A stretch of DNA of 64,000 nt, taken from the NCBI GenBank assembly GCA_947561715.1, contig OX387197.1, positions 27,120,266 to 27,184,265 of the forward strand, written 5' to 3'. This DNA comes from Ascidia mentula. Its lineage: Eukaryota > Chordata > Ascidiacea > Phlebobranchia > Ascidiidae. Under the pieces are notes generated by a model, which saw only the letters and a program-made list of their open reading frames with translations, ran no database searches and had not been told where the DNA came from. Positions 3,164 through 48,000 of the stretch are shown piece after piece. Made by a program: the position numbers and the translations under genes. Position 1 is the first letter of the stretch. Each line of letters starts with the position of its first letter.

Positions 3164-6100
3164 ATGGACGAACAACAAACAGAAGAAGAAAATAATCCAC
3201 AAAACATTGTTGCCGAGGTAAGCTTGTTGATCAGAAGGGTTTCCGAAGTATGTTGGCCGGGGATGTGTTTGTTTGCAAAAACTGGCGCGAAAGATTATAA
3301 TAATAAGAAGAAACCAAATAAAACTAAGCATTTCAATGGAAAGATGGGATTGTTCTTACTGCACAATTTATCAATTCTTAGAGCTATTTAGGCCAAGCAA
3401 ACACTGTGAGTCGCGGTCGATTGGTCATGACTTGTGTTTCGATACGAATTACTGTGGAAATTTTATGTAACAATGTGCGTACTTTTTGTAATTGCATCAG
3501 TTTGATTTTTCTGTCATATAGTCAGTACATTCCCACTTAAATAAAGTACAAGATTGACCCAACTAGCAAATCTTTCCAAGACTTGTTTCATTGTTAGGAT
3601 ATGCAAAAGTAATTAAGGCTATATAATGCTTTAAAAAGGCAACAGCACTGGCCCTTAAAGTGATATCGGCTATCGTATCGAGATCAAAATGTTTACTGGA
3701 CCCGGCTTGACTTTGCAATATCGCTTAAAACTATTGGGAAAAAGTTTTATTTCCTGTGCACAACTTTTGTAGGTACGTTACAATAAAGTTCAACTAAATC
3801 TGAACCTTTAATCTGATCTGTGCCGGTAATTTGTCAGAACCGGAACTAAATGTGAACCCACTGGGTTTAAAAAACTTTCGAGCCTGACCCGGAACTGAAT
3901 TCTTATGGCAAACGGTTTGACTGGTTACAACACAACAAGAAAAAAAAATAAATAGAAAAAGGGGTGTAGGCCTGGAAAGCGTCATGTCACTGTGCAAAAT
4001 CTATGATACCACCAAAAGGGTGTCGAATTTCAAGCTGATATCGCCAGCAGAAATCTTTCAGCCAACGCCATTCGCCCTTGACAATCGCAAATAGTTTTGT
4101 GAATATAAAGACACAAAAGAAACACACATAAACACCACAAACAATTAACGAAAGCGTTAGTGATGCCTGTTTCATTCCAGAACCTTCATATCAGTGACGT
4201 ACAGAATCAAATTTGGCAACAGCAGACCATATATCAACAACCTGTGATACAACACCATTACCACCAAGCAGCAACGCCAGTTAACGCTGAATCAAATGCC
4301 CCAACAACTTCCCAGGACGTTGTTGCACAAGGTGTAAAATGTTCGCAAGATTAAAATCGCTAGATAATATGTGGTAAAGCAGCACCAGTACTAACTCGAC
4401 TGGATCATTCATACAACTTATTTTTATTGAATAATTTGTTCGTATTGAAACGATTGTAAATAATAGAATGAAAATCTTGCTAGCACAGTTTATAGACCTT
4501 TAATGTAGAGTCTAACAGCAAAATCAATTTCTTCTAAATTTCTTTTGATATTGAACTTTAGTTAGAAACAACAGTAAATTAGTTTTGATCAGCACAAGGA
4601 AATGCGGCATTACAAAAATCCGGTTTAAAATTTGCAGATACTAAACTACAACAGGCAGTTGATGAAATCAAAAGATACCAGCGGGAAAAACTCGATCCTG
4701 ATGTTGTCCCTTACAGCGATGAGTTTAAGGAGACTGAAGTCCCTGAAGTTTATCCAAGCCTAATTAAAACTGATATTTACAAAGGCATTGATCCTGAAAT
4801 AGAAAGTGAGTTCCGGCGATCAACAAGCAAAAGAGTGGGAGATAGGTTTGTTGGAGAACACATAAACTTTCATGATTTAGTTGCAAGTTTCACAATCCAA
4901 AGCCAGAAAGGTATATTCCTAGCTCTTCTGGGCCCAGCTGGATGTGGAAAAACTACTCTTTCAAAGAGATTGTGCAGGCATCTAGAAACAGAAGATCACT
5001 TAGTGCTTCATCTTCGTTTCATGTTTTTAAACTACGGCGACAGAACGCTTACTTTGCAGGAGCTTTTGCTGGATAACCAGTTTATCGATGCTTCACAGGA
5101 AACACTTAATTTGGTTTTCCAGTGGATGAAAAACAACCAGGAAAAGTGTTCTTTTATTTTTGATGGCTTGGATCAGGCAACCTGGACACTAGAAAACATG
5201 GCACCTGTAAATGTGAAGTATGGCACTCCCTTGCCAGTACAACAGCTTGTTGCTAACCTTTGCAACAAGCATTTTTTTTCTAAATCTTTGTTGATTTTTA
5301 CCTCTAGACCCCATCCACTATTCTCAACACCTTTGGGACTTAGACCCGACCCCACAATTTATGTCAGTGATCTTTCTGCAAATGATACAAAGGCTTTGTT
5401 TTATGGCTACGCAGCCGATAAAGCTAATGAACTGTGGAACAAGCTTGAGGTTAAATCTCCACAGTTGCTTGATTTATGTCGCAATCCAATGCTTTTACAA
5501 TTCATTGTATATGCTGGGTTATTTGGCAACGCAAACCACATGTCCACCATAACTAATGTGTTTGATGCCGTTTTGCAACAACTTGGTCGCTCTGAGCATG
5601 CAAAAGGAGAGAAATTAGATAACCTCAAACATTCACTTGGCCAAATGGCATATGAAGGCATGGTTCGTAAAACCGTTATGTTCTCCCATGATGATCTTCT
5701 CAAAGTAGGCTTGAAAGATCTAAAAGTTCAGGATGTTGTAATCAAAATGGCAAAGATCTTCTGGTTCTCATGTCAGAGAGTTTTTGACGGAGCAAATGTT
5801 CTCTTTCTTTTTGTGCATCAAATACTGCAAGAGAATTTTGCGGCACAGTACATCTCCTTTTTCATGCCAGATGAAGAATTCGATCAATTCCTTGATGATT
5901 TGGTTGAAGACCCCCATTGGGGAACCACCCGCCGTTTCGTTTGCGGTCTTTTGCTTGGAAATAAATCTGGTATTTACAGAATATTAAACCTTATATTGCG
6001 ATATATTTTATCTCCTGTATCTTCAGCGAAAGTTTCTGGACGTGGTTGCACTGAAAACTGTTTGGAGTCATATTCAGACCATAGCACTGTCAGCCATGCA

Positions 6101-9100
6101 ACAAGTTCCAAGATACAAGATATACGTCAGTTTGTAGTTTATTTTATTGAAAATGAAACAATTGTTAAGTGCTACCATATATGCATGTATCTTTGGTGCC
6201 ATATTTTTGCAACAATGTATTCCTGGAAAGGCGGCTTTGGCAATAAGTTTGACGTTAGAGGTCACAAAATTGCTTCCTTATAATTTGTTTTGCAGCTTGT
6301 GGAAGCGGTTTGACTCGAACGGATGTGAAATTTGCTTCATCCAAAACATTAAGGGTGGAATTCATAAACCCCGATCAAGGATCAGATCAGTTGATCCGGA
6401 TCAGTTTTCATAGATCCGTATTCATAAACCCCGATCAAAGCTGATCGCGGATCAGTATGACGCGTTTTGATCCGCGAATTTGATCCACCCTTGGAGGTGG
6501 ATCAAGCCTACTTTCCTGCGTTGTTTTTGTTAAATTTGACCGTTAATTTCATTGTTCCTTGTTGCGTTGACAATCAATATTGTCATTTCTTGACTAACGG
6601 CTGAAAAAAAGCATTTACGCGACTCGGCCAGCTGTTCTGCTGATGAGCTAACACGTTTTTCATGGCAAGTATTAAACTTTGTATACAATGCGTAAATTAA
6701 GATAGTACAAGCAAAATTAGTTTGATGTTTGCTATGTAACAAAAATAGTAATAAATAAATTGAAAATGAAGGTACAAAATCCATTTGTTAAAAATGCATT
6801 TTATGAGCAGCTGTGCAAATAGTGTACCTTTTTTTGCAGAAGCAACGAAAAGTAGGGATTGGCCAGTTTTTAAACATTTATTATCAATTAACTTTACAAA
6901 ATTAACCTAGAGGATGTTGGTATCACTGATTGTGGTTGAATTGTTATACAATATATGTCAAAAACTTGCAGAAACTTCCAGTTGAAAAGGTAGATTTCCT
7001 TCTGGTAGTACCAAATGCAGCACCAATACAAATTTCAAAATATTTTTTGTTTTGCATAAAAAAATCATGGAACATTTGACCGTGATGCAACTAAATAACT
7101 TCCCACTAATGCTAATCTTGTTACAAAAAGTTAGCATACATTGTATTGTGCACCAAACACATGCTTCAATTGGTTTTACAGACAGTGTATCATTGTATTC
7201 CCGTAATAATATGAATATATGGTATTATTTGCACGAAATATAATAGTTTTGCTTGTCAGAGTATTTATTATCAACAATTAATTGTGCAATTGCAGTTACA
7301 CTGGGAATGTATGCCTTTTGCCTTAACTGCAATTTATGTTTGAGGCCCTGGTGTCTTCATTTTTATTTTAAAAAAACACATGGTTGATAATTTTATTTTG
7401 TACATCTGTGTTTTTTAAATAAAATGCATTTATAACTTGTTCATGTGATTCTTATGACAGTTAGCTGACAACTAACAAGAGAAATTACATTCTTTGCTTG
7501 TTTTAGTTTATTCATCACAATGATTAACAGGTAAAAACAAAATTATCACAATTAATTAGTTGGGGAACTTGCACACGGCTTTGAATTATTCTAGTAATTG
7601 CTCTGATGAAAGTGACCTTGAATGTTAGAATAGTTTCCAAACGACTTGGTAATAAAAATTGGTTGGACCTGCAAAAAACAGAAAGTTGGCAAAGTCACAA
7701 TTAAAAATTTAAATTCGTACTTTCTTCCAAAGAATGGTCGTTTATTGCGTTATCTTAATGTCGAAACATATGCCAGTTAAATAAATCTCTCACAATTTAG
7801 CATTTATAAAGTAAAAGTAGGCCCAAATGGTTAACAAAGGACAGCAACATTTACCAACCAAAACACTCATACTTCACTTCGTACTTACTTGTTTCCCTCG
7901 TGTTTAATCTTCCAGCAAAAACTCAGACCACAACCTAGTCTACGCAAAACAGCTACCGCTGTCAATGCGAATCGCCACCGACACCGGTCACAATTAAGCA
8001 CCCTACCTACTTCCTGTCGAACTTGCGCAGTTTGTTGTCTGCACAATCACTGAACCGTAAAAAATGTGATAAAAATTCGTGATACTTTTCGCTACAGCGA
8101 AGGATATATCACGAAACTCCGATCAAAACTGTGGTTGATCCAGGATCAGCTAATCGGGGTTTATGAATTCCAACTTGATCCGATCGTTGATCCTGGATTA
8201 GCTGATCCGGGATCAAGGATCAATCCTGATCGGGGTTTATGAATTCCACCCTAAGGGTTGCAACAAGCAGACAACATCATGTGAAACAGTTGAAGAAAAT
8301 TGGTGATGATTTTGCAAAGCCCAAATCGAGTAAAGATAACAACAATCCTTATTTTTAACCTTCGTTATATAAGATTTATTGATATGAGTTAAAAAAATGT
8401 TGTTGTTTTACTTTTTAAACGAATAAAGTATGTTTCTGTTGAGTTTCTTCAATCTTTCACAGGAAAACGCGGAGGGTCTGACAGACGCTCATCAGATGAA
8501 ACACAATCAAAACGTGCTAGAGAAGGTCCGTTTTTTTACATGAAGTTACCACGCTTTCAAAATCAAAATAACTTATGATGCAATAATTTTGTTTCGAAGC
8601 TTCTGGAAACTCGTCCTCAATGAACAATCCAAGATCAATGTCTGGTTATGATGCTGGGCAACACAAAGAAGGTATTGAACCAGACCTTTATTTAAGCACT
8701 TAATTATAAAATTGTAATTCTTTAAAATCAAAGTATTTTCCTGATACAAGAATTGCATTGGAACCGTTTGTCACATGATTACTTGTTAAATTCGTTGGCA
8801 GTTTTGCATCACCCCTATCAGTTGGTTGATCCCGCAAATAATTCTCCCATTTCCATACATTGCTTCTACTTATATCACGAATGTTCATTTTATAGACAAA
8901 CGTTGGCAAAAGCTTTTGAAGAGACTTTCGAAATTCCTCCTAGAAAAAGATTCCGATGGATTGTTTTTACATGGATACGAATTGCGAGGTTAATATTTAG
9001 GTCCAGTCAGTTCAATGTATGTTTGTAAGCATAACTGTTACGTCACAGTAGGTGTCAGTTTCGTCACAATCGCATTGTATAGTATTGGATTTTGTTTTCG

Positions 9101-9754
9101 TAGATTTACATGAAGTACTTAAAATAAACTTGTTCCTGTTTCAGATTTCCTCGTAGATTTACAAGAAGTTGACGACAAATTCAGGGATGAAATTGCTTGC
9201 TCCTGTACTAAACAGTTGTACATAAGTGGAACCCCACTGAATACGTCGGATATTTTCGCTTTGGTTGACTTTCTTCCTCGAATTCGAATACGCGGTTTAA
9301 GGCTGTGGCTGGCAGATTGCCAACTGAATTCCCAAACTTTAAACATGATCTGTGAAGCGATCACGAATTTGAAACACAAGGTTTGTTAAAATTAAAAATA
9401 TTTTTTAACATTTCTGCTTTTTCTGTTTTCAAAAGTTTGAAACCAAATCTTGATATTTTATGAAGTTGGGAATCCTCTTCCTGAGTAGAAACAAGTTTGG
9501 AAAAAACGATGTCAAGAACATTTGTCGGATTCTTAAGAAAGTGAGATGGTTGGACCTGGAAGATTGTGGATTCGATTCCGAATCTATTCGGATCTTGAAG
9601 GAAAAGTCAAAACAACTGAAGCACCGAGTATGACATTTGTTTAATCTATATTTACAAATAAAACTGATTTTGAGTTATTTTTCAGCCATATATTGACGGT
9701 TTGAATGATCAGTCGCCTTCCTCGTCCAGTGAGGATTCCAGTGGTCCGGATTAA
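3164..9754 (+). CDS. NACHT-LRR (NLR) family receptor, ten exons, exon 4 split by a transposon
   Basis: Proposed exons: 3164-3217, 4181-4331, 4593-6125, 6296-6352 joined to 8255-8329, 8463-8525, 8600-8671, 8896-8988, 9145-9380, 9466-9627 and 9686-9754. All phases agree and the total is 2565 nt (854 aa) if the transposon in exon 4 is excluded. A Q-rich N-terminal region is followed by a NACHT NTPase with P-loop GPAGCGKTT near residue 181 and Walker B FIFDGLD near 257. Then come a probable winged-helix region, a basic segment resembling a nuclear localisation signal (RKRGG...KRARE), and two or three leucine-rich repeats (LWLADCQLN, LDLEDCGFD). No death, CARD or PYD effector domain is visible. 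NLRs act as cytosolic sensors or transcriptional regulators; the role here is unknown. The exon 3 donor (gtcagt at 6126) is the least certain junction. Read through the insertion, the frame stops at 6442-6444, before the LRRs. Confidence 0.85.
6353..8251. mobile_element. 1.9-kb inverted-repeat DNA transposon, PIF/Harbinger-like by TSD, non-autonomous
   Basis: The ends are inverted repeats starting gggtggaattcataaacc and ending with its complement. They are flanked by a TAA duplication (6350-6352 and 8252-8254). Each end carries a second copy of the core attcataaaccccgatca further in (about 6420 on the left, 8153 on the right), and both ends are packed with GATC motifs. A 3-bp TWA target site is characteristic of PIF/Harbinger elements, but no transposase-like protein was recognised in the AT-rich interior. 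It sits inside NLR exon 4 and looks recent, because both the duplication and the outer termini are intact. Confidence 0.85.
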
Positions 9755-19854: not shown

Positions 19855-22800
19855 CTAAATCTGTCTCATGGTTTTAACGTCGATTGCAACTTTAAACGGA
19901 CTTCCAGTTGCTTCCTTGATGTCATCTACTGTCAAGCCCTCGGCAATTTCAATCAAAACGAGACCATCCTTCTTGTCGACATCGAATACACACTGAAAAA
20001 GAGGTCAGTTGTCGGCTGATGAGGATGTCACAAGATGATGTTGGTTAATATTATAATTGGCTTCTGTATTTTCTACACCAGGTAATTAATATTTGCATTT
20101 TGCTGCACATTCACAGCAATACACTTGTCAAAAAATATTAGTCAAGTTTGTCCAAGTAAACAGAACCAATATTGCAAAGGCTTGTGATGTAAAGACAATA
20201 CAATTTAAAGTGATAGTTTACCTTGTCTGTGATAATAGTATCAACACATTTAGTTCCTGTCAAAGGAAGATTGCATTCCTCCAAAATTTTATGTTTTCCA
20301 CCCTTAGCAACGTGTTCCATGGTAACAACAACTTTGGTCCTTGCGCTCCCAACAAGATCCATTGCTCCTCCCATTCCCTTCACTATTTTGCCCTGTGCAC
20401 ATGCATTCATTGACAGGGTAAACTCTTTGAGATAGCAGAATCTCCAGTGAGCTTTATGGCCAACAAAGACTATCTTTCTTCAGTAACAAGGTCTTCATTT
20501 TTACTGATATATATTCTGCCTGCTAAGAGGCATTGTAGTGTAGGTATAGCTTGTTCAAATTATAAACTCCAATGCTTGATTTGTACAAGTGAGATTAATA
20601 ATTTTCGCAACATACCGGTATCATCCAGTTGGCGAGATCTCCGTGTTGTGAGACTTGCATCGCACCGAGAACAGTGAGATCAATGTGACCTCCTCGAATC
20701 ATCGCAAAACTGTTGTCGCTTGAGAAGTACGACGCCCCAGAAACCACAGTAACTGTTTCTTTGCCGGCGTTTATTAAATCAGGATCCTCTTTACCCACTC
20801 GTGGGAACGGACCCTGGGGGTTATAAAAGATTTGTCAATTATGACATCACATTTATGTAAGTTTCAAACCCACCAAACCCATAACTCCATTTTCACTTTG
20901 CAGGGTCACGCTCATGCCTTCTCGTATAAAATTACTTGCCAACATTGGCATCCCGATACCCAGGTTAGCGTACATCCCATCTTTAAATTCAAGTGCAGCT
21001 CTTCTTACAATCCTTTCCCTCATCAAAGCAGATGGTTTTGTTGACTGGGAAGTACTGTCTGGTTCCTTGTAGTGGGTCAGTCTCTGTATAGACAATTACA
21101 CTATATTGACTCAAAGGGAAATTTCTTCCGATTGTAACAATAGTAAATTTTTAGGACAAACATGACAAAAATTATCTGCAATACTAATTCCAGTCTAGTG
21201 TGTAACATTTTTTTGCATGGAAGAATAAAAGAAATTGGTCATAGAAAGGTATGAATAAGTTACCTCAATACGTTTTTCATATTTTTCCCCTTTGATGACC
21301 CTCTGTACGTAGACCCCTGGTACATGAACATGTTCAGGAGGTATTTCTCCATTTTCAACAATCTCTTCAACTTCTACTATGGTCGTTCGAGCAGCCTACA
21401 ACATTATTCATCCTGCTTTCTGCGATTTTTACACACTCAGTAACTTTACCTTACACATTGGTGCGTTAAAGTTTTGCGCTGTTTTCCTAAAAACTAAGTT
21501 TCCAGATTTATCAGCTTTCCATGCTTTGATCAAACCAAACTCCCCGGTTATGGCTCTTTCCATTACATAATTTTGTCCATCAAAGTTCCTGGACTGCAAA
21601 CAATATTAAGTTGTGATTAGTACAAGGGGCAGAAAGATTCAAGTGGGCTATGGTCACTTGTCAATGTTGAACTTAATCTTACTGGCTAGGTCCCCATAAC
21701 ATTTACTAGCAATTATAAATTTTACCTCTCTTTCTTGACTTTTTTCAATAATTTTTCCATTTGCATCATATTTTATTGGTGCACCACCAAGATGAATCAG
21801 CGTTCCATACCCAGTAGGTGTGAAAAAGGCTGGAACCCCAGCCCCCCCAGCTCGTATTCTCTCAGCAAGAGTCCCCTGGGGGGTAAGTTCAACCTGGACA
21901 GGTAGTAAATATTGATTTAGGTTTTTTTAATCAGGCTTTAAACCAGTGATTCCCAACCTTCTTGTGGTTACGTACTAATTCAATTTCGACACGTACCGCC
22001 AAGTCAAGTGTTACAAAGTAACCAAGGGAATAGTAACGAATATTTTAAGATCAGTTAAGATTTTTTAAATTGGAACTATATCCACTAATTATAGAAAAGT
22101 ACTCGCGTACCACTGGTTGGAAACCACTGCTTTATACCATATTTGGTAATTTACTTGAAAAATATTTGAAAGTGATTATTGGATTATACAAGTTTCTTTA
22201 ATATTGTTGGATATGTTGCATATTATAATCAGAGAGTCCAACATGTTATGGCAGTTTAAGGTGAGTATTGTTGGATGGTTACCTCAAGTTCGCCGGACAA
22301 ATATTGTCTTTCAAACTCTGCATTTTCACCAACATACGATGAAATCATTCGTTTTATCTGGCGTTGTTTCAACAGCAAACCAAGACCAAAATCATCAACC
22401 CTGTGAAATCGAAATCATAATACCAAGCTAGATACGAGCAACAAGAAACCAAAAACATATTTTTCCATGGTTAATGTTTTTGTCTTGGATTTTGTACAAG
22501 GTCAAGTACGTATAGCTGAATGTTGATGCACAATAGTTGTCCCACCCACCCTGCATTGTTGCTCACGACTGTAAGGTTTTTGGGCTTTTTTCTCAACAAT
22601 GCTCCGATTAAATTCTCTGGGATCCCACACAATCCAAACCCCCCAACCAACAATTTCGATCCGTCGCTTACATCAGCCACGGCTGCGTCAAAATCATCAT
22701 AAAACTTGGCGTTTCGCAAAGCAGTTGTAGAAAACTTGCAAACCTGTAAAAACAATGCACTGTAATCACTTGCATTACAATGCAAATAAAGCCTATACAG

Positions 22801-23138
22801 GTCAATATGTGAACAATTCATAACATCCTCTCTAAAAAGGACCGTGAAACTTTCCGTAATCAAATGCTTTAGAGTTTTAAATTGCACCACCCTGCACAGT
22901 GTACGTAAGTACATATGTACTCAAGGATATATTTTTATTTATATTGCAGAAATACACAAAAAATGCACGTAACAACAACAGAGGCATTTTTATTAATTGA
23001 GACAAAATAGTGGTAATGCAAAGTATTATTGTCATAGAATGTAACAGGTATGAAAAGACGAACCTTTGTGTATGAAAACACACGACATGCTGAAAGTCGC
23101 AGTGACTTGCAAAATGTGATGCTCATGATTTTCTGCAA
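19855..23138 (-). CDS. OXCT1: Succinyl-CoA:3-ketoacid CoA-transferase (SCOT), mitochondrial
   Basis: SCOT transfers CoA from succinyl-CoA to acetoacetate, the committed step of ketone-body use in mitochondria. The protein begins [19 protein letters not shown], a basic, serine-rich presequence consistent with mitochondrial import; a second ATG at 23126 is an alternative start. Family segments in order: [20 protein letters not shown] with [10 protein letters not shown] (about 22550-22690), the [16 protein letters not shown] region (about 21820), [16 protein letters not shown] (about 21320), the catalytic-glutamate motif [10 protein letters not shown] (about 20890), and the tail [11 protein letters not shown] ending at 19855. 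Both subdomains of the fused animal enzyme are present. Divergent from DNAI3. Confidence 0.95.
21944..22129. mobile_element. 186-bp hAT-type MITE in an OXCT1 intron
   Basis: Termini cagtgattcccaacc and ggttggaaaccactg are near-perfect inverted repeats. They are flanked by 8-bp direct repeats ctttaaac (21936-21943) and ctttatac (22130-22137), 7 of 8 matching. An 8-bp duplication with CAGTG ends is the hAT signature. There is no coding capacity. Confidence 0.85.
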
Positions 23139-31946: not shown

Positions 31947-32334
31947 CTCCCCAAAGCTCGCATAAAAATGACAAATTTTGCAGCTACACAATATGACACA
32001 TTTACTACCATTCTGACATGGGCAAGTGGCAATCAGTTCTCCTTTGTGCAGTGAATGCTTGACCTTCTTGAAAGCTTAATCTTGTGCTTGTTTGTCTCCC
32101 TTCACATTCATGTCTATTCCATGGAAACAATATTTTTTCTTTGTCTCATTTTTACACAAACACAACCATTACTTATTGAACCCAATTCATCTTTGGCTTT
32201 CAATATTTTCCAACAGTTGAAACACTTTTTAAACCTTTGATTTTTATGTTTAAATCCGCTTGTACTCTTTGTTTAGTTTTAGGTGTAAAAAAGTAAAATA
32301 TGCCCAAGGCACAGCTGAAACTTCATAATCAAAC

Positions 32335-32793
32335 ATGACTTCATCCCTTCTTTACCCAAAGTTAGTGAGGACTTTTGCTTGCCGCTTGTACAGCTCTGCT
32401 TCCAACAAGGTCACTTGCAGTCGACGGTTTGAAGAAAAAGATTTGTTCGAATTTGCCAATTTAACAGGCGACCACAACCCAATACATCTCGACGAAAACT
32501 TTGCATCAAACACGGGAATTTTCGAACGCCGTGTTGTGCACGGAGCTCTTATAAACGGTTTCGTGTCCGGAATTCTGGGAACGAAACTTCCCGGCCCCGG
32601 CAGTGTTGCCTTTTCACAGGAAATCCGTTTCCCCAAACCTCTGTACTTGGGCGAAGAGATGGTTGCCGAGGTGAAAGTGGTTGCGACAAAAAGAAAGTTT
32701 GTGGAATGCGAGATCCTTTGTCGAGTACCAGAGAAGGACAAAATTGTCATGTCGGGAAAGGCTACGGTAATGTTAATGCAACAAACCAAGTAA
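32335..32793 (+). CDS. HTD2: Mitochondrial hydroxyacyl-thioester dehydratase type 2 (MaoC family)
   Basis: HTD2 dehydrates 3-hydroxyacyl-ACP in mitochondrial fatty-acid synthesis (type II). A single uninterrupted 152-aa frame. Residues 1-25 are basic and hydroxylated (LVRTFACRLYSSAS), as in a mitochondrial presequence. A hot-dog-fold hydratase follows with the signature FANLTGDHNPIHLDENFAS; Asp46 and His51 are the expected catalytic pair. In vertebrates this protein is made from the bicistronic RPP14 transcript; no RPP14-like frame was seen upstream here, where the neighbour is INIP 388 bp away on the same strand. Lack of introns is unusual beside intron-rich neighbours. Confidence 0.9.
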   Translation: MTSSLLYPKLVRTFACRLYSSASNKVTCSRRFEEKDLFEFANLTGDHNPIHLDENFASNTGIFERRVVHGALINGFVSGILGTKLPGPGSVAFSQEIRFPKPLYLGEEMVAEVKVVATKRKFVECEILCRVPEKDKIVMSGKATVMLMQQTK

Positions 32794-42000: not shown

Positions 42001-45000
42001 TGAGGCGAACCGACGTCAACATGACCTCGATAAGAATAAGGTCAGCACTTGAGATTCTACCAAGTATTATTGCTTGTTTGTCTTTTTCGACCCTCGCCCA
42101 CTGCCCTCAAGCTGGGTTTTTATTTCAACAAAAAATTTCTGACAAATGTACGAAATAGCTGTAAACATTTCGAACCTTGCGAATTTTTTTAGACATTTAT
42201 AACGTATATTTCAAAACAAGTAGCTTATTGCAGTAATTTACGCGATGTAACAGCCAACTTTCTTCGCAAAGCACACGAAAACGCGGGCATCAAGTATTTA
42301 TTGTGACAAAACCTTGATATTTTGTTAAAGCCGGGGCATGTAAAAAACACGGGTAAATCGGATATTTTTATTCGTCACTGTGACTTGTTGGAATGTGGAA
42401 ACTTAAACTTTGCCCTTCGCGTGTCGCTCGCCTGTCTTCGGGAACACAACGCCACCTACCGGACGCATATACCGCTTGTGCGTCCACTCACACGCACTTT
42501 GAAGAAACACCCGCTGGTCCAGGGTTCTTTGCTTTTCGCGTGATTCACATAAACATACATAATTTTACATCGGGGCAAACCCTTCGTTACACCTTGTTAT
42601 TCGTACAGGTGGTTTATCTCCAGCAGTTAAGAGACCTCATTACTCAATGTGACCAAACAGCGAAAACCGTGACCATTTCATTCTTCCAACAACACCAACA
42701 TCTGTTCTCACCTCTACCTGTGCAGGTGGGTCAATTCGCTGCAGCGAAAACAACCGTTTAATGGAAGCCTTCAGATTATTGAGATTTTTAACCTTATGTG
42801 ATTTTCCCAACATTCAAATAACCAGTAAATATTATAAATTATTGATAAGTTGCAACTTTAACAATGGATTCATAAAAGATGCCAACACCGGGTGTCGTGT
42901 CTACAAGAACGAAATCCTATGTAGTTTAAACTCTTTGTTGGTGTCAAAACAGATGAAATTTTGTTCTTTTCAGTTTCAGGCGATGTGTGAAGATGCCCGG
43001 AGATACGAACCTGGATTCCAATATTCCGACTACATCCGAAACCTTCCGATCCAACCCAATGTTAACCGAGCCGACTTTGAGTTTGAGAGATTCGCACAGG
43101 ACGGTTCTCCTTACCTCGTACAAACAGGTGATGAAATTGGAGACGAAAGTCCTGCCGGGATTCTTGTGTTTAAAAGTTCGGAATGTTGGTTTTTGTTTTA
43201 AGATTTTTAATGAAACAGACGCGAAAATGAACCACAGTAACTTTGCGTAGACTGTAAAATTCTTTTGTTTATATTCATCCGCATTGATTCCACTTTTTAA
43301 TAAAATTTAAATGTTTTAGGTTCGAAATTGGCGGAATCCGAGGATTCCCCGTATCAGGGACGAGGGAGACGATCTAAGGGTAAACCTCACATTCCTAACT
43401 ACCTTAGTTTACTGTAATTATCCCCACGAAAAGTTCTTTTCACAACCTTCGGACGAGACAATATTTTTAGTTGTGATTTACAAGTGTTTGTGTCTTCAGC
43501 TTTTGAAGATTTTGCAGTCTCGGAATTTTAGGGTTTTAAATATTTGTAACCAAAGCTCACTTCTCACGAACTATTTAGTCCTGGTCTTATTGTGGGAGTT
43601 TTTCTGTGGTAGTACACGGTATGCCATGCAGTTTATGACAATTACATGTGACTGTTTATATAAACGTGCCATAATAATTTCCTCAACAAACCAATATCAT
43701 CCACCCCCCGCTTTCCACAGCTGGTATGAGCGATACTGAGAGTAGCAGCAGTCGATCTTTGGACGATATTTCCCCGTCAGCCAGTCCTGGTGACCTCACT
43801 CGACCCCAGGGGACAGTCCCTCAGCTGCGACGACATTCTACTGAAGGTTCGGTTTCATCCGAGGATGTTTTGGACGATAAAGAACATACAGGAGGCACGC
43901 TTGCGCCACCTACCGACAGAAGTAAGTGTTTGTTTCGTAACGAATCCACGGGCTGAATTTTGTTGAAATTAGCTTATGTTAAGGCGGTATCGTAATACAT
44001 GGTGAAACGTGGTAGTTTTTCTGTCATGTTTTTAAAACACAATATTCCGTGATTTTGAAAACGTCTTAACAGAGAAATTTATTTTACATTTCATAACAAA
44101 ACTTTCAACAATTGAAGTTAAATTTTGTTTAGATCTGGAACCGACTCCAAACTCTTCTCCCCTCCCGAAACGTAACCAGATGTCGAAGCAAGCAGTTAAA
44201 ATGGTGGCTAACGTTCGTGGTGCTTTTAAGGTAATAAATATTTGAGCTAAACGTTTGAGTAAAATCTAATCATTAATAAAAGAGATTACACAATTTGTGA
44301 CACAACTGATTTGCGATTATCTCTAATTCGCTTGGTAACGATCTTGGTAGCAAATTAAATCAAGCGAACAATTTTTTCCGCAGATGCCGAAGAAGCAGCC
44401 GAAAGCTTCTGTGTTCGGGGTTGAATTTTCTATCGCTGCGCAAGATGCGGTTGATGGAATTCCTTACGTTGTGAAACGTTGCATTGCTGAGATTGATAAC
44501 AGAGCTCTTACTATTAAGGTAATCCTCCTTTTCATCAAACTTGTCGACTGGGTGTTCTGGAAGGTTCAACACTTCAGAAAGAGTTGACAATTTTTTGTAT
44601 TCAGTTCCGTTCCTTCGAACATTCCCGACTCTTTTCATCAAACTTGCCCGACTGGGCGTCTTAGGGCGCTCAGCACTTTTAAGAATTAAATTTATTTTTC
44701 GCATTCAGTTCCGTTCATTACTTTTTTATGTTCACGGACAAATTATCACAGGAGTAAAATAATGTGTCGGAAAGTTTGGTTTGGAAATGCATGGAAAACT
44801 GCAGTTATGTCTATTAGATCCATATATTTCATTTTTCTGTATTAACACGTTGACAATGGTTACCAACTCGACCAACCAACGTACAGATATGATGGTTTAC
44901 TCATTCTCCAAACAGGGGATTTACCGGATAAACGGTGTGAAAAACCGCGTAGAGAAGATTTGTGCCCAGTTCGAAAGTGCGCCGACCACCATGGAATTAT

Positions 45001-48000
45001 CTCAACATTCACCACACGATGTCAGTAGTGTGCTCAAGTGTTTTCTCCGACAACTTCCCGAACCTCTGTTGCAGTTCATAACATACACGCAACTATTGCA
45101 AATCGCTAAGGTGGGGGTTGTGGAGTTTTGTGGTAAAATTGGTGTTGAAAATTGGCTTTGTTTGCATTTAAACCAGAATTGCTCAGTTGGCGGCCACTAA
45201 CGTTGGCTGAAGTTGTTTGAATAATTAAAAACTTGTGGTAATTCTAAACTCAAACTGCACCCAAACCTAACTACTATCCCCAGTTTTGCTTCAAACTCAA
45301 TATTTTATTCCCACATACAGGATTACCAGCAGCTGATCGCCGAAACGAACGAATCAGCGAAACGTGCTAAGGAGGAGGGCCGCCCCCCACCCCCTCTCCC
45401 CACTCGTGACGTATTGGACGCTCTGATCGATCGAATACGCCAGACTGTAGATAAACTCCCGCTACCCAACCGTAACACCCTGCAGTATATAATATCACAT
45501 CTTACCAGGTATATAGGGATGTGAAACTTGTCCGAACCTTCTCTGTATTTTTAGTAAATTTGGCGAAGGGGTTGCTATAATTTTGATATGTTTATGGTTA
45601 TGTGGTCACTGTGAAGTAATTTACACTGGTATATAGTAAGCCATGGTGTGCATGAAATCCATGTTCATATATCTCCCGCAGGGTGGCAGCACACAGCAAG
45701 GACAACAAGATGACCTCGAGTAACCTCGCCATTGTGTTCGGTCCAACGCTCATGCGACAAAAGTTGGGGTGAGTTCTCGAATAACCCCGTATTATAACCG
45801 TCGTCATGGCAACATAGTGTATTTGGTGCACTCTTGGTTATTCACATGAAATATTTCCTGGAAATGAATGAAGTAATTCCATGTACAATTGATCGCCTGC
45901 CTCTATCCATGATAACCGTGCTTATATTGAATTGTTTCCATAGAGACGGCAACGAATCGTTGAACATGTTGATAGACATGCCATTCCAATCCCGTATTGT
46001 TGAAATGCTGATTGAACACAAGGATTATATATTCGGGACCCATTCCCATCAAGCTGGGAACATCTTTCCATTCCCAGGTTTCACTTCATGTTTTGCTTTA
46101 ACTTGTTAATTATTTGTCATAAACACAAAAATGTATGTAGTGATGTAATTAACTGTGATAACGAACAATTTCACATTTATATTTTTCACCGCCAGTTGGA
46201 TTCGAACCCACGGTATTCTGTGCAAAAATCCCAACATTTTTGTGTGGTTTGAAGTAGAATGGTGGTTAATTAAAAAACAATTGTTATTTCAGTTAAGATG
46301 CCCAAAAATTTCATTTTGCTTTTGTTAACCATCCCACGTAACCTTGATTTGAGGTGACATAAAAAACATTCTTGCTACATTCGGGGTCTCACTAAATCGT
46401 TTCTCCCATAATGGAAAATATATGTAGATTTTTCATCAAAACTCCCCACAGCCACTGTAACCTCCACAATTCATCCTAGGTTTCCAGCAAGCCCCGTCAT
46501 CTTATGCTCCAGAGAACGTGGATGACAACGCTCTCACTCCTGATTCCGCCATCTCGGAGTCGGAGGATCTTGCCGCATCCGTTAGCGACCTCTCGATATC
46601 AGATCAAAACACAGCTCGTCCTTCCGAGATCCTTCTCGATTTCGACGTTTCTCCTCCTTTTAACCAACCGTCAGATGGCGCTAGTGCCACGGGTGGTGAT
46701 GATAATTACGGGACAACTACGGTAAGTTTAAATTTTCACGTTTAATGCGTAGAAATGTGGTTTGTGGCTAAACCAACGCGTAGTTAGCCTGCAATCTGGT
46801 TGGGTTTGTATCAGTTTAGGGTGTTAGAAGGTTAAATTAAGCCCGTTTGTCTTTGGGAAGTACGGAAGGTTAAGGTTTGTTTACAAATTGTATGGTTAAG
46901 ACGTCGTCTAGTTTGAAGCTAAAATGGCCACAGAACCTTATGTTAACCATGTGGATTGCATGGCCTGGCCATCAGCACTGCTGTAATTTATTAAGCTGGT
47001 GTGGTAGCAGGGGTTGCTACGGGTTGCATGACGTAATAACCGTGTTTTCTGCATGTTCCTGGTGTTGCTCGTGCATCATCTCACCTTATGTTGTCATAAC
47101 GACGCATTTTAGGTTTTTCCAGAAATTTCAATAAGTTGTACTGTTTTAAATACTGCCTGTAGAAAATCTGCTACCGTTTTTTTTAGGAAATTATAACGGT
47201 GATAACTCATCCATAATTCCTGCATATAGGATGGAATATACGATAATATGGACCTTAAAAAAAAATTGTTTACAAAAATATGCAAACATATTTTAATGCA
47301 AGTTTTTTCCGCCGCCTTTTTTCTTTCTGGTGTGCTTACGTCATCCCCTTTTACCTTTTATTTCTCTCGCATGGCTTGCTCATCTACTGACACAGATCGA
47401 CAATTTTCCGATTAACAATCCCGCCATCGCCGGCGCCATCAACGGTGAGTGACGTAACGATGTATGACGTCATCTCGTTGCATGCCGTGTGACGTAATTC
47501 GTGGTGCTTTGCTTGTGTGTGTGTGAACTTAACTTGGGTGTTATTGGTTGTGGATTTCCGACATCGTATATGATTTTGATGTGGGCGGCATTTGTGTCAA
47601 AACACGAGCTTGGGAATTAACATATCATGGGGATCCCCCCTCATGGGGTTCTTAACCTGGGGTCCATGAACCCACAAGGGGTACGAGAAGATGCATTAAG
47701 GGGTCCGTGAAACGAAATAAAATTATTCCGAAATTCCACGTTTTTCCTTTGTCCAAGGTTTCGCTATCAACGAATTTTAATTTTTCAACATTTGCAATGT
47801 GTTTCTTGCAAAGGGGTCCAGAGCTTTTCAAACAATGTATTAGGGGTTCGTGATCCAAAAAAGGTTAAGAAACACTGCCCTAAACAAACACAAGATGCAA
47901 ACATCTTTGCCGCCCACGTGACCGCATTTGTCACTTTTTTAATTTAAACTTTTTCAAACGATTGGATTTTCGACTAACAGACTTACGTGGTGCTGTGCAT

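Follow-up and report, generated by a model that had tools for sequence, protein, structure and literature searches.

A non-autonomous PIF/Harbinger DNA transposon appears to have inserted at a TAA in exon 4 of an NLR-type gene that had until then been intact, on chromosome 1 of the ascidian Ascidia mentula, and the full-length protein would thereby be lost on this haplotype, either by truncation or by skipping of the interrupted exon; we give this reading a probability of about 0.85. The window, that is, the whole stretch of DNA analysed, is 64,000 nucleotides long and corresponds to C1:27120266-27184265, contig C1 being taken as chromosome 1 (OX387197.1); positions are given within the window unless a contig is named. 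The element would have been moved by a transposase from a coding relative like the copy at L039:2238-5190, and after its insertion the full-length protein of 845 or 854 codons would not be encodable from this haplotype by any route found. Two outcomes may follow. Exon 4 and the element may be retained, or the message may end inside the element, in which case the product would be 628 aa long and lack the LRR part, or the message would decay; alternatively, the 2-kb interrupted exon may be skipped, which would give an in-frame 810-aa receptor missing only the polar linker of 44 (or 35) residues that lies between NACHT and LRRs.

The insertion is real but fairly ordinary. The element is of a known kind, and insertions into large receptor families are to be expected. 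Its value is that of a clear-cut transposon insertion in an immune-type gene for which 20 paralogous empty sites are available. A search of the literature found nothing on Ascidia mentula and transposable elements, nothing in titles and abstract openings on the NLRs of this species, and no title on a case like this insertion.

The interrupted gene

The gene model is predicted from the sequence and comprises ten exons on the forward strand. Exon 1, from the ATG to its donor (3164..3217), and exon 2 (4181..4331) are predicted from frame and splice signals. Exon 3 (4593..6125) encodes the NACHT ATPase and winged-helix region, with a Pfam NACHT match (PF05729, E 1.1e-16) above the cut-off and a partial match to the NOD2-type winged helix (NOD2_WH, 1e-5). 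Exon 4 is split by the element into a left half (6296..6352), which includes the left TAA and has a homologous exon in all 20 fetched paralogs, and a right half (8255..8329). Exon 5 (8463..8525, 63 nt) and exon 6 (8600..8671, 72 nt) are both predicted from frame and phase and are phase-1 symmetric. Exon 7 (8896..8988) is matched in 16 of the 20 paralogs, and exons 8 and 9 in 18 of 20 each; exon 8 (9145..9380) is LRR-like by position and has no Pfam match, and exon 9 (9466..9627) is LRR-like with a Pfam LRR_1 match of 0.016, below the curated cut-off. Exon 10, which carries the stop codon (9686..9754), is predicted from the frame and has a single weak match (L022, E 0.022) among four paralogs.

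When position 6352 is joined to 8255, exon 4 becomes an open exon of 132 nt and the ten-exon model encodes 854 codons with one terminal stop, both figures as originally predicted. The 3' end of the exon needs revision. The original prediction had placed exon 4 at 6296-8329, and the open joined frame of 132 nt stands; its donor, nevertheless, is more likely to be 8302 than 8329, judging by homology and score. A GT is present at the position homologous to 8302|GTG in 17 of the 20 paralogs (16 detected by script and L015 by eye), being absent in L019, L021 and L022, and the donor score is 4.0 at 8302 versus 2.5 at 8329. A donor at 8302 makes the exon 105 nt long and gives the empty gene 845 codons; both exon lengths are multiples of three. 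The splice scores were computed with general weights and discriminate poorly, since the gene's own predicted acceptors range from -4.4 to 6.7.

The NACHT match supports the original description of the gene as NLR-type, its split coding exon is likewise confirmed, and the product is best regarded as an NLR-type protein with a putative immune role. Among solved structures, the nearest relatives in sequence are 7crw, 'NLR family protein 1' (6.8e-17), together with NLRP1 chains. The gene thus resembles NLRP1-type receptors in its NACHT domain and its best solved relatives, and differs from them in that its LRR match lies below the cut-off and in being interrupted by an element. Just upstream, positions 2397-2945 of the reverse strand match the Integrase_H2C2 zinc-binding domain (Pfam, 3.3e-8) and are therefore probably a retroelement remnant. 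Elsewhere in the window lie exons of ordinary genes, with Pfam matches to CoA transferase (22474-22920, reverse strand, 6.4e-15), MaoC-like dehydratase (32329-32790, forward strand, 4.2e-18) and RhoGAP (44763-45197, forward strand, 6.4e-17).

The inserted element and its relatives

The element spans 6353..8251 (1,899 bp, no strand assigned). Its first 25 bases (from 6353) and its last 25 (up to 8251) are exact reverse complements of each other, so that a perfect 25-bp terminal inverted repeat is formed by 6353..6377 on the forward and 8227..8251 on the reverse strand. A TAA adjoins each edge, at 6350..6352 and 8252..8254, as expected of a target-site duplication; the TAA-flanked inverted termini of the original prediction are thereby confirmed. 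On paper the direct repeat extends to 7 bp, TAAGGGT (6350-6356 and 8252-8258), because the host GGGT that follows the right TAA is identical to the start of the element. Inside the right end there is a subterminal copy of the terminus motif (8158..8175, reverse strand, at most 3 mismatches in 18). Reading frames for a transposase or a Myb/SANT protein are absent from the element, the longest stop-free stretch being 88 aa.

The 24-base terminus was sought across 195,842,439 bases in 79 contigs, allowing up to 3 mismatches, and gave 26 matches, 3 of them in the window element itself; the reversed control pattern gave none in the same search, so the matches are not due to chance. The best relative at the right end (L039) is 95% identical over 203 bp (distance 0.051), and the best at the left end (L041) is 94% identical over 162 bp (distance 0.058). 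The copy at L039:2238-5190 has the same termini as the window element and encodes, in separate open frames, DDE_Tnp_4 (7.9e-29) and Myb_DNA-bind_5 (1e-10) domains (Pfam). From its inverted repeats, its TAA duplication, which is of the 3-bp TWA type of PIF/Harbinger, and this coding relative, the window element is classified as a non-autonomous PIF/Harbinger copy; the DDE_Tnp_4 and Myb/SANT proteins typical of the superfamily are encoded by the relative and not by the window element. It shares with the large MITEs of PIF/Harbinger its terminal inverted repeats, a 3-bp TAA duplication and the lack of a transposase. With 1.9 kb it is longer, this being long for a MITE, and is otherwise not unusual.

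The flanks of other copies are less uniform. A near full-length relative (L033, 81-87% identity in three pieces) has TAA on both sides when the right end is taken to lie two bases beyond the match, and a 131-bp copy (L046) is flanked by TAA at both ends. Against the family assignment, among the fetched copies listed, TWA lies outside 11 of the 24 termini of other copies and not outside the other 13, several of these being C71 copies that duplicate each other, and the coding copy in L039 has an unmatched pair of flanks, GAA and TAA.

Further relatives, about 80-83% identical, are found in L034-L038 (C71, 15.25-15.28 and 19.2-19.7 Mb). Some of the copies at 19.2-19.7 Mb lie within a few kb of places that match LRR exons of this NLR family, and were apparently duplicated together with these neighbouring exons. 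At two places a pair of termini face each other, the whole spanning 82 bp (C1:27073549-27073630) and 61 bp (C67:9611722-9611782) between outer edges; these are very small fold-back relatives of the window element, the former some 47 kb upstream of the window.

Paralogs, empty sites and age of the insertion

A search with the exon 3 region (query 4600-6352) found at least 39 other places with 78-82% identity in exon 3, all on C71, another chromosome-size contig that is taken as chromosome 7; the number is a lower bound, as 40 of 122 candidates were scored. The NLR expansion is a large one: 35 of these places lie on one strand in two arrays, at 0.68-0.95 and 14.2-15.3 Mb, and isolated copies occur at 12.7-13.8 and 17.5 Mb. 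The best-scoring 20 of the 39 listed places were compared with the window gene. In exon 3 they are 93-99.9% identical to each other, and the window gene, at 81-82% identity to them, is a lone diverged copy. The exon 3 match contains stops in three of the 20 (L014, L025 and L032), which indicates that decayed copies exist in the family.

All 20 paralogs have an exon 4 homologue without the element and with a frame open through the site, the typical paralog exon reading CRGGLASTNVKSTSSKTLDGAT as compared with CGSGLTRTDVKFASSKTLRVAT in the joined window exon. In a blastn search with the joined site, first copies align across the junction in 15 of the 20; L023 and L028 end just short of it and L019, L021 and L022 are unmatched, the open exon 4 having been recovered in these five by the frame check. 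The left half of exon 4 had 25 further short matches in the search with exon 3, but the query ended at 6352, which makes the ends of these matches uninformative. The exon 4 unit occurs twice in 15 paralogs and once in five, second copies having been sought at 3600-5200 of each locus. In each of the 15 second copies the homologous stretch can be read in the same phase without a stop (a sixteenth match, in L032, is a chance one); their acceptors, AAAG or GAAG, look weaker, and they are putative exons. The empty sites are paralogous, not allelic. No empty allele was found among the 40 of 122 candidates that were scored, where the nearest other exon 3 copy is about 82% identical, as expected if a single haplotype is represented in the assembly.

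Apart from the element, the gene is intact: the joined frame has a single terminal stop, and exon 3, pooled over the 20 paralogs, gives a dN/dS well below 1 (0.269, with dS 0.555). The pooled value for exons 7-9 is 0.465 (dS 0.583), and for exon 7 alone the mean across 16 paralogs is 0.85, a noisy figure from only 25-30 codons. Since the copy is lone and diverged and shows constraint, the gene has probably been intact over a long separate history, with the insertion late in it. The distance of 5-6% between the element and its closest relatives, about a tenth of the gene dS of 0.555, may be taken as an upper bound on the age of the insertion, and the event, originally predicted to be recent, does appear relatively young.

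Consequences for the protein and alternative explanations

An artefact of assembly is hardly credible as the origin of the interruption: nothing was found in its favour, the termini are perfect and accompanied by a target duplication, and the published description of the A. mentula assembly gives 74-fold HiFi reads and a QV of 64.9, with a total of 196,975,169 bp in 95 scaffolds, nine chromosomes and a longest scaffold of 27,920,005 bp (PMC11109543). It is also improbable, though less so, that the gene was already a pseudogene, or that exon 4 was never used, the insertion being then without consequence. The lone and diverged position of the gene, the stops in three of the 20 paralogs and the absence, at the homologous place in the window gene, of the GTAAAT found after exon 4 in many paralogs would fit such a history, against which stand the single, terminal stop in the 854 joined codons, the constraint on exon 3 and the presence of a donor at 8302. 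Removal of the element from the transcript, in the manner of introners (DNA transposons turned introns) and with the protein unaffected, had been offered in the original prediction as one possibility. The edges of the element do resemble those of an intron, with a donor AGG|gtggaa at 6354 (score 3.0) and an acceptor ccaccctaag|G at 8256 (score -1.0), which score no differently from sites predicted for the gene itself, and larvacean work is summarised as placing 95% of introns outside the GT/AG rule in some tunicate genomes (PMC13326754). Like introners, then, the element has a GT near one edge and an AG at the other; unlike theirs, its removal at this GT-AG pair falls one base short and does not restore the frame, for an intron at 6355-8255 takes out 1,901 nt of the 1,902 inserted, and the extra nucleotide shifts the frame to an end at 615 or 620 aa. 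The frame was kept in none of 802 combinations of 23 donors (score 2.0 or more), 34 acceptors (-4.5 or more) and two exon ends within the enlarged exon, a test confined to GT-AG introns and hence to canonical sites, and splicing exon 3 straight to a new acceptor among the same scored sites never keeps it either. Excision by splicing is unlikely on these grounds, and an introner-like removal that leaves the protein unaffected has a very small probability.

A disruptive insertion into a working gene therefore remains the preferred reading, and what it does to the product depends on the treatment of exon 4. Read in the gene's frame, the element brings a premature TGA at 6442..6444 on the forward strand, the very position predicted originally, after 628 aa; six hexamers resembling polyA signals occur in 6296-8329, and these are common by chance in AT-rich DNA. 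The original view that the LRRs are lost and that the allele may be a knock-out goes further than the sequence shows, since both boundaries of exon 4 fall in phase 1, like those of exons 5 and 6, and a splice from exon 3 to exon 5 therefore stays in frame and would yield 810 aa. A weak donor at 6307 (score 2.0), joined to exon 5, is also in frame and would give 814 aa. The insertion may thus leave the gene alive, exon 4 being skippable in frame.

That skipping is in fact what happens, so that the insertion is nearly neutral and leaves a receptor with a shorter linker, is a serious possibility that falls somewhat short of even odds. Besides the phase symmetry, the variable copy number of the exon 4 unit among the paralogs speaks for a dispensable linker unit, and internal exons of 2 kb, the size of the interrupted one, are usually poorly recognised. 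On the other hand, the enlarged exon may be kept if splice sites pair across introns in this species, and skipping is itself predicted, the second exon 4 copies of the paralogs being putative exons with weaker-looking acceptors. Retention or truncation is, by inference, slightly likelier than skipping. A broader proposal is rather doubtful: that a segregating allele forces the skipping of a repeat-type, phase-symmetric linker exon, giving a shorter receptor that is still of NACHT-LRR type, and that such symmetric exons buffer the NLR family against transposons. If exon 4 is skipped, the case would illustrate how a modular linker can shield a family of receptors against insertions; if it is not, the window gene would simply add to the broken copies of a large family.
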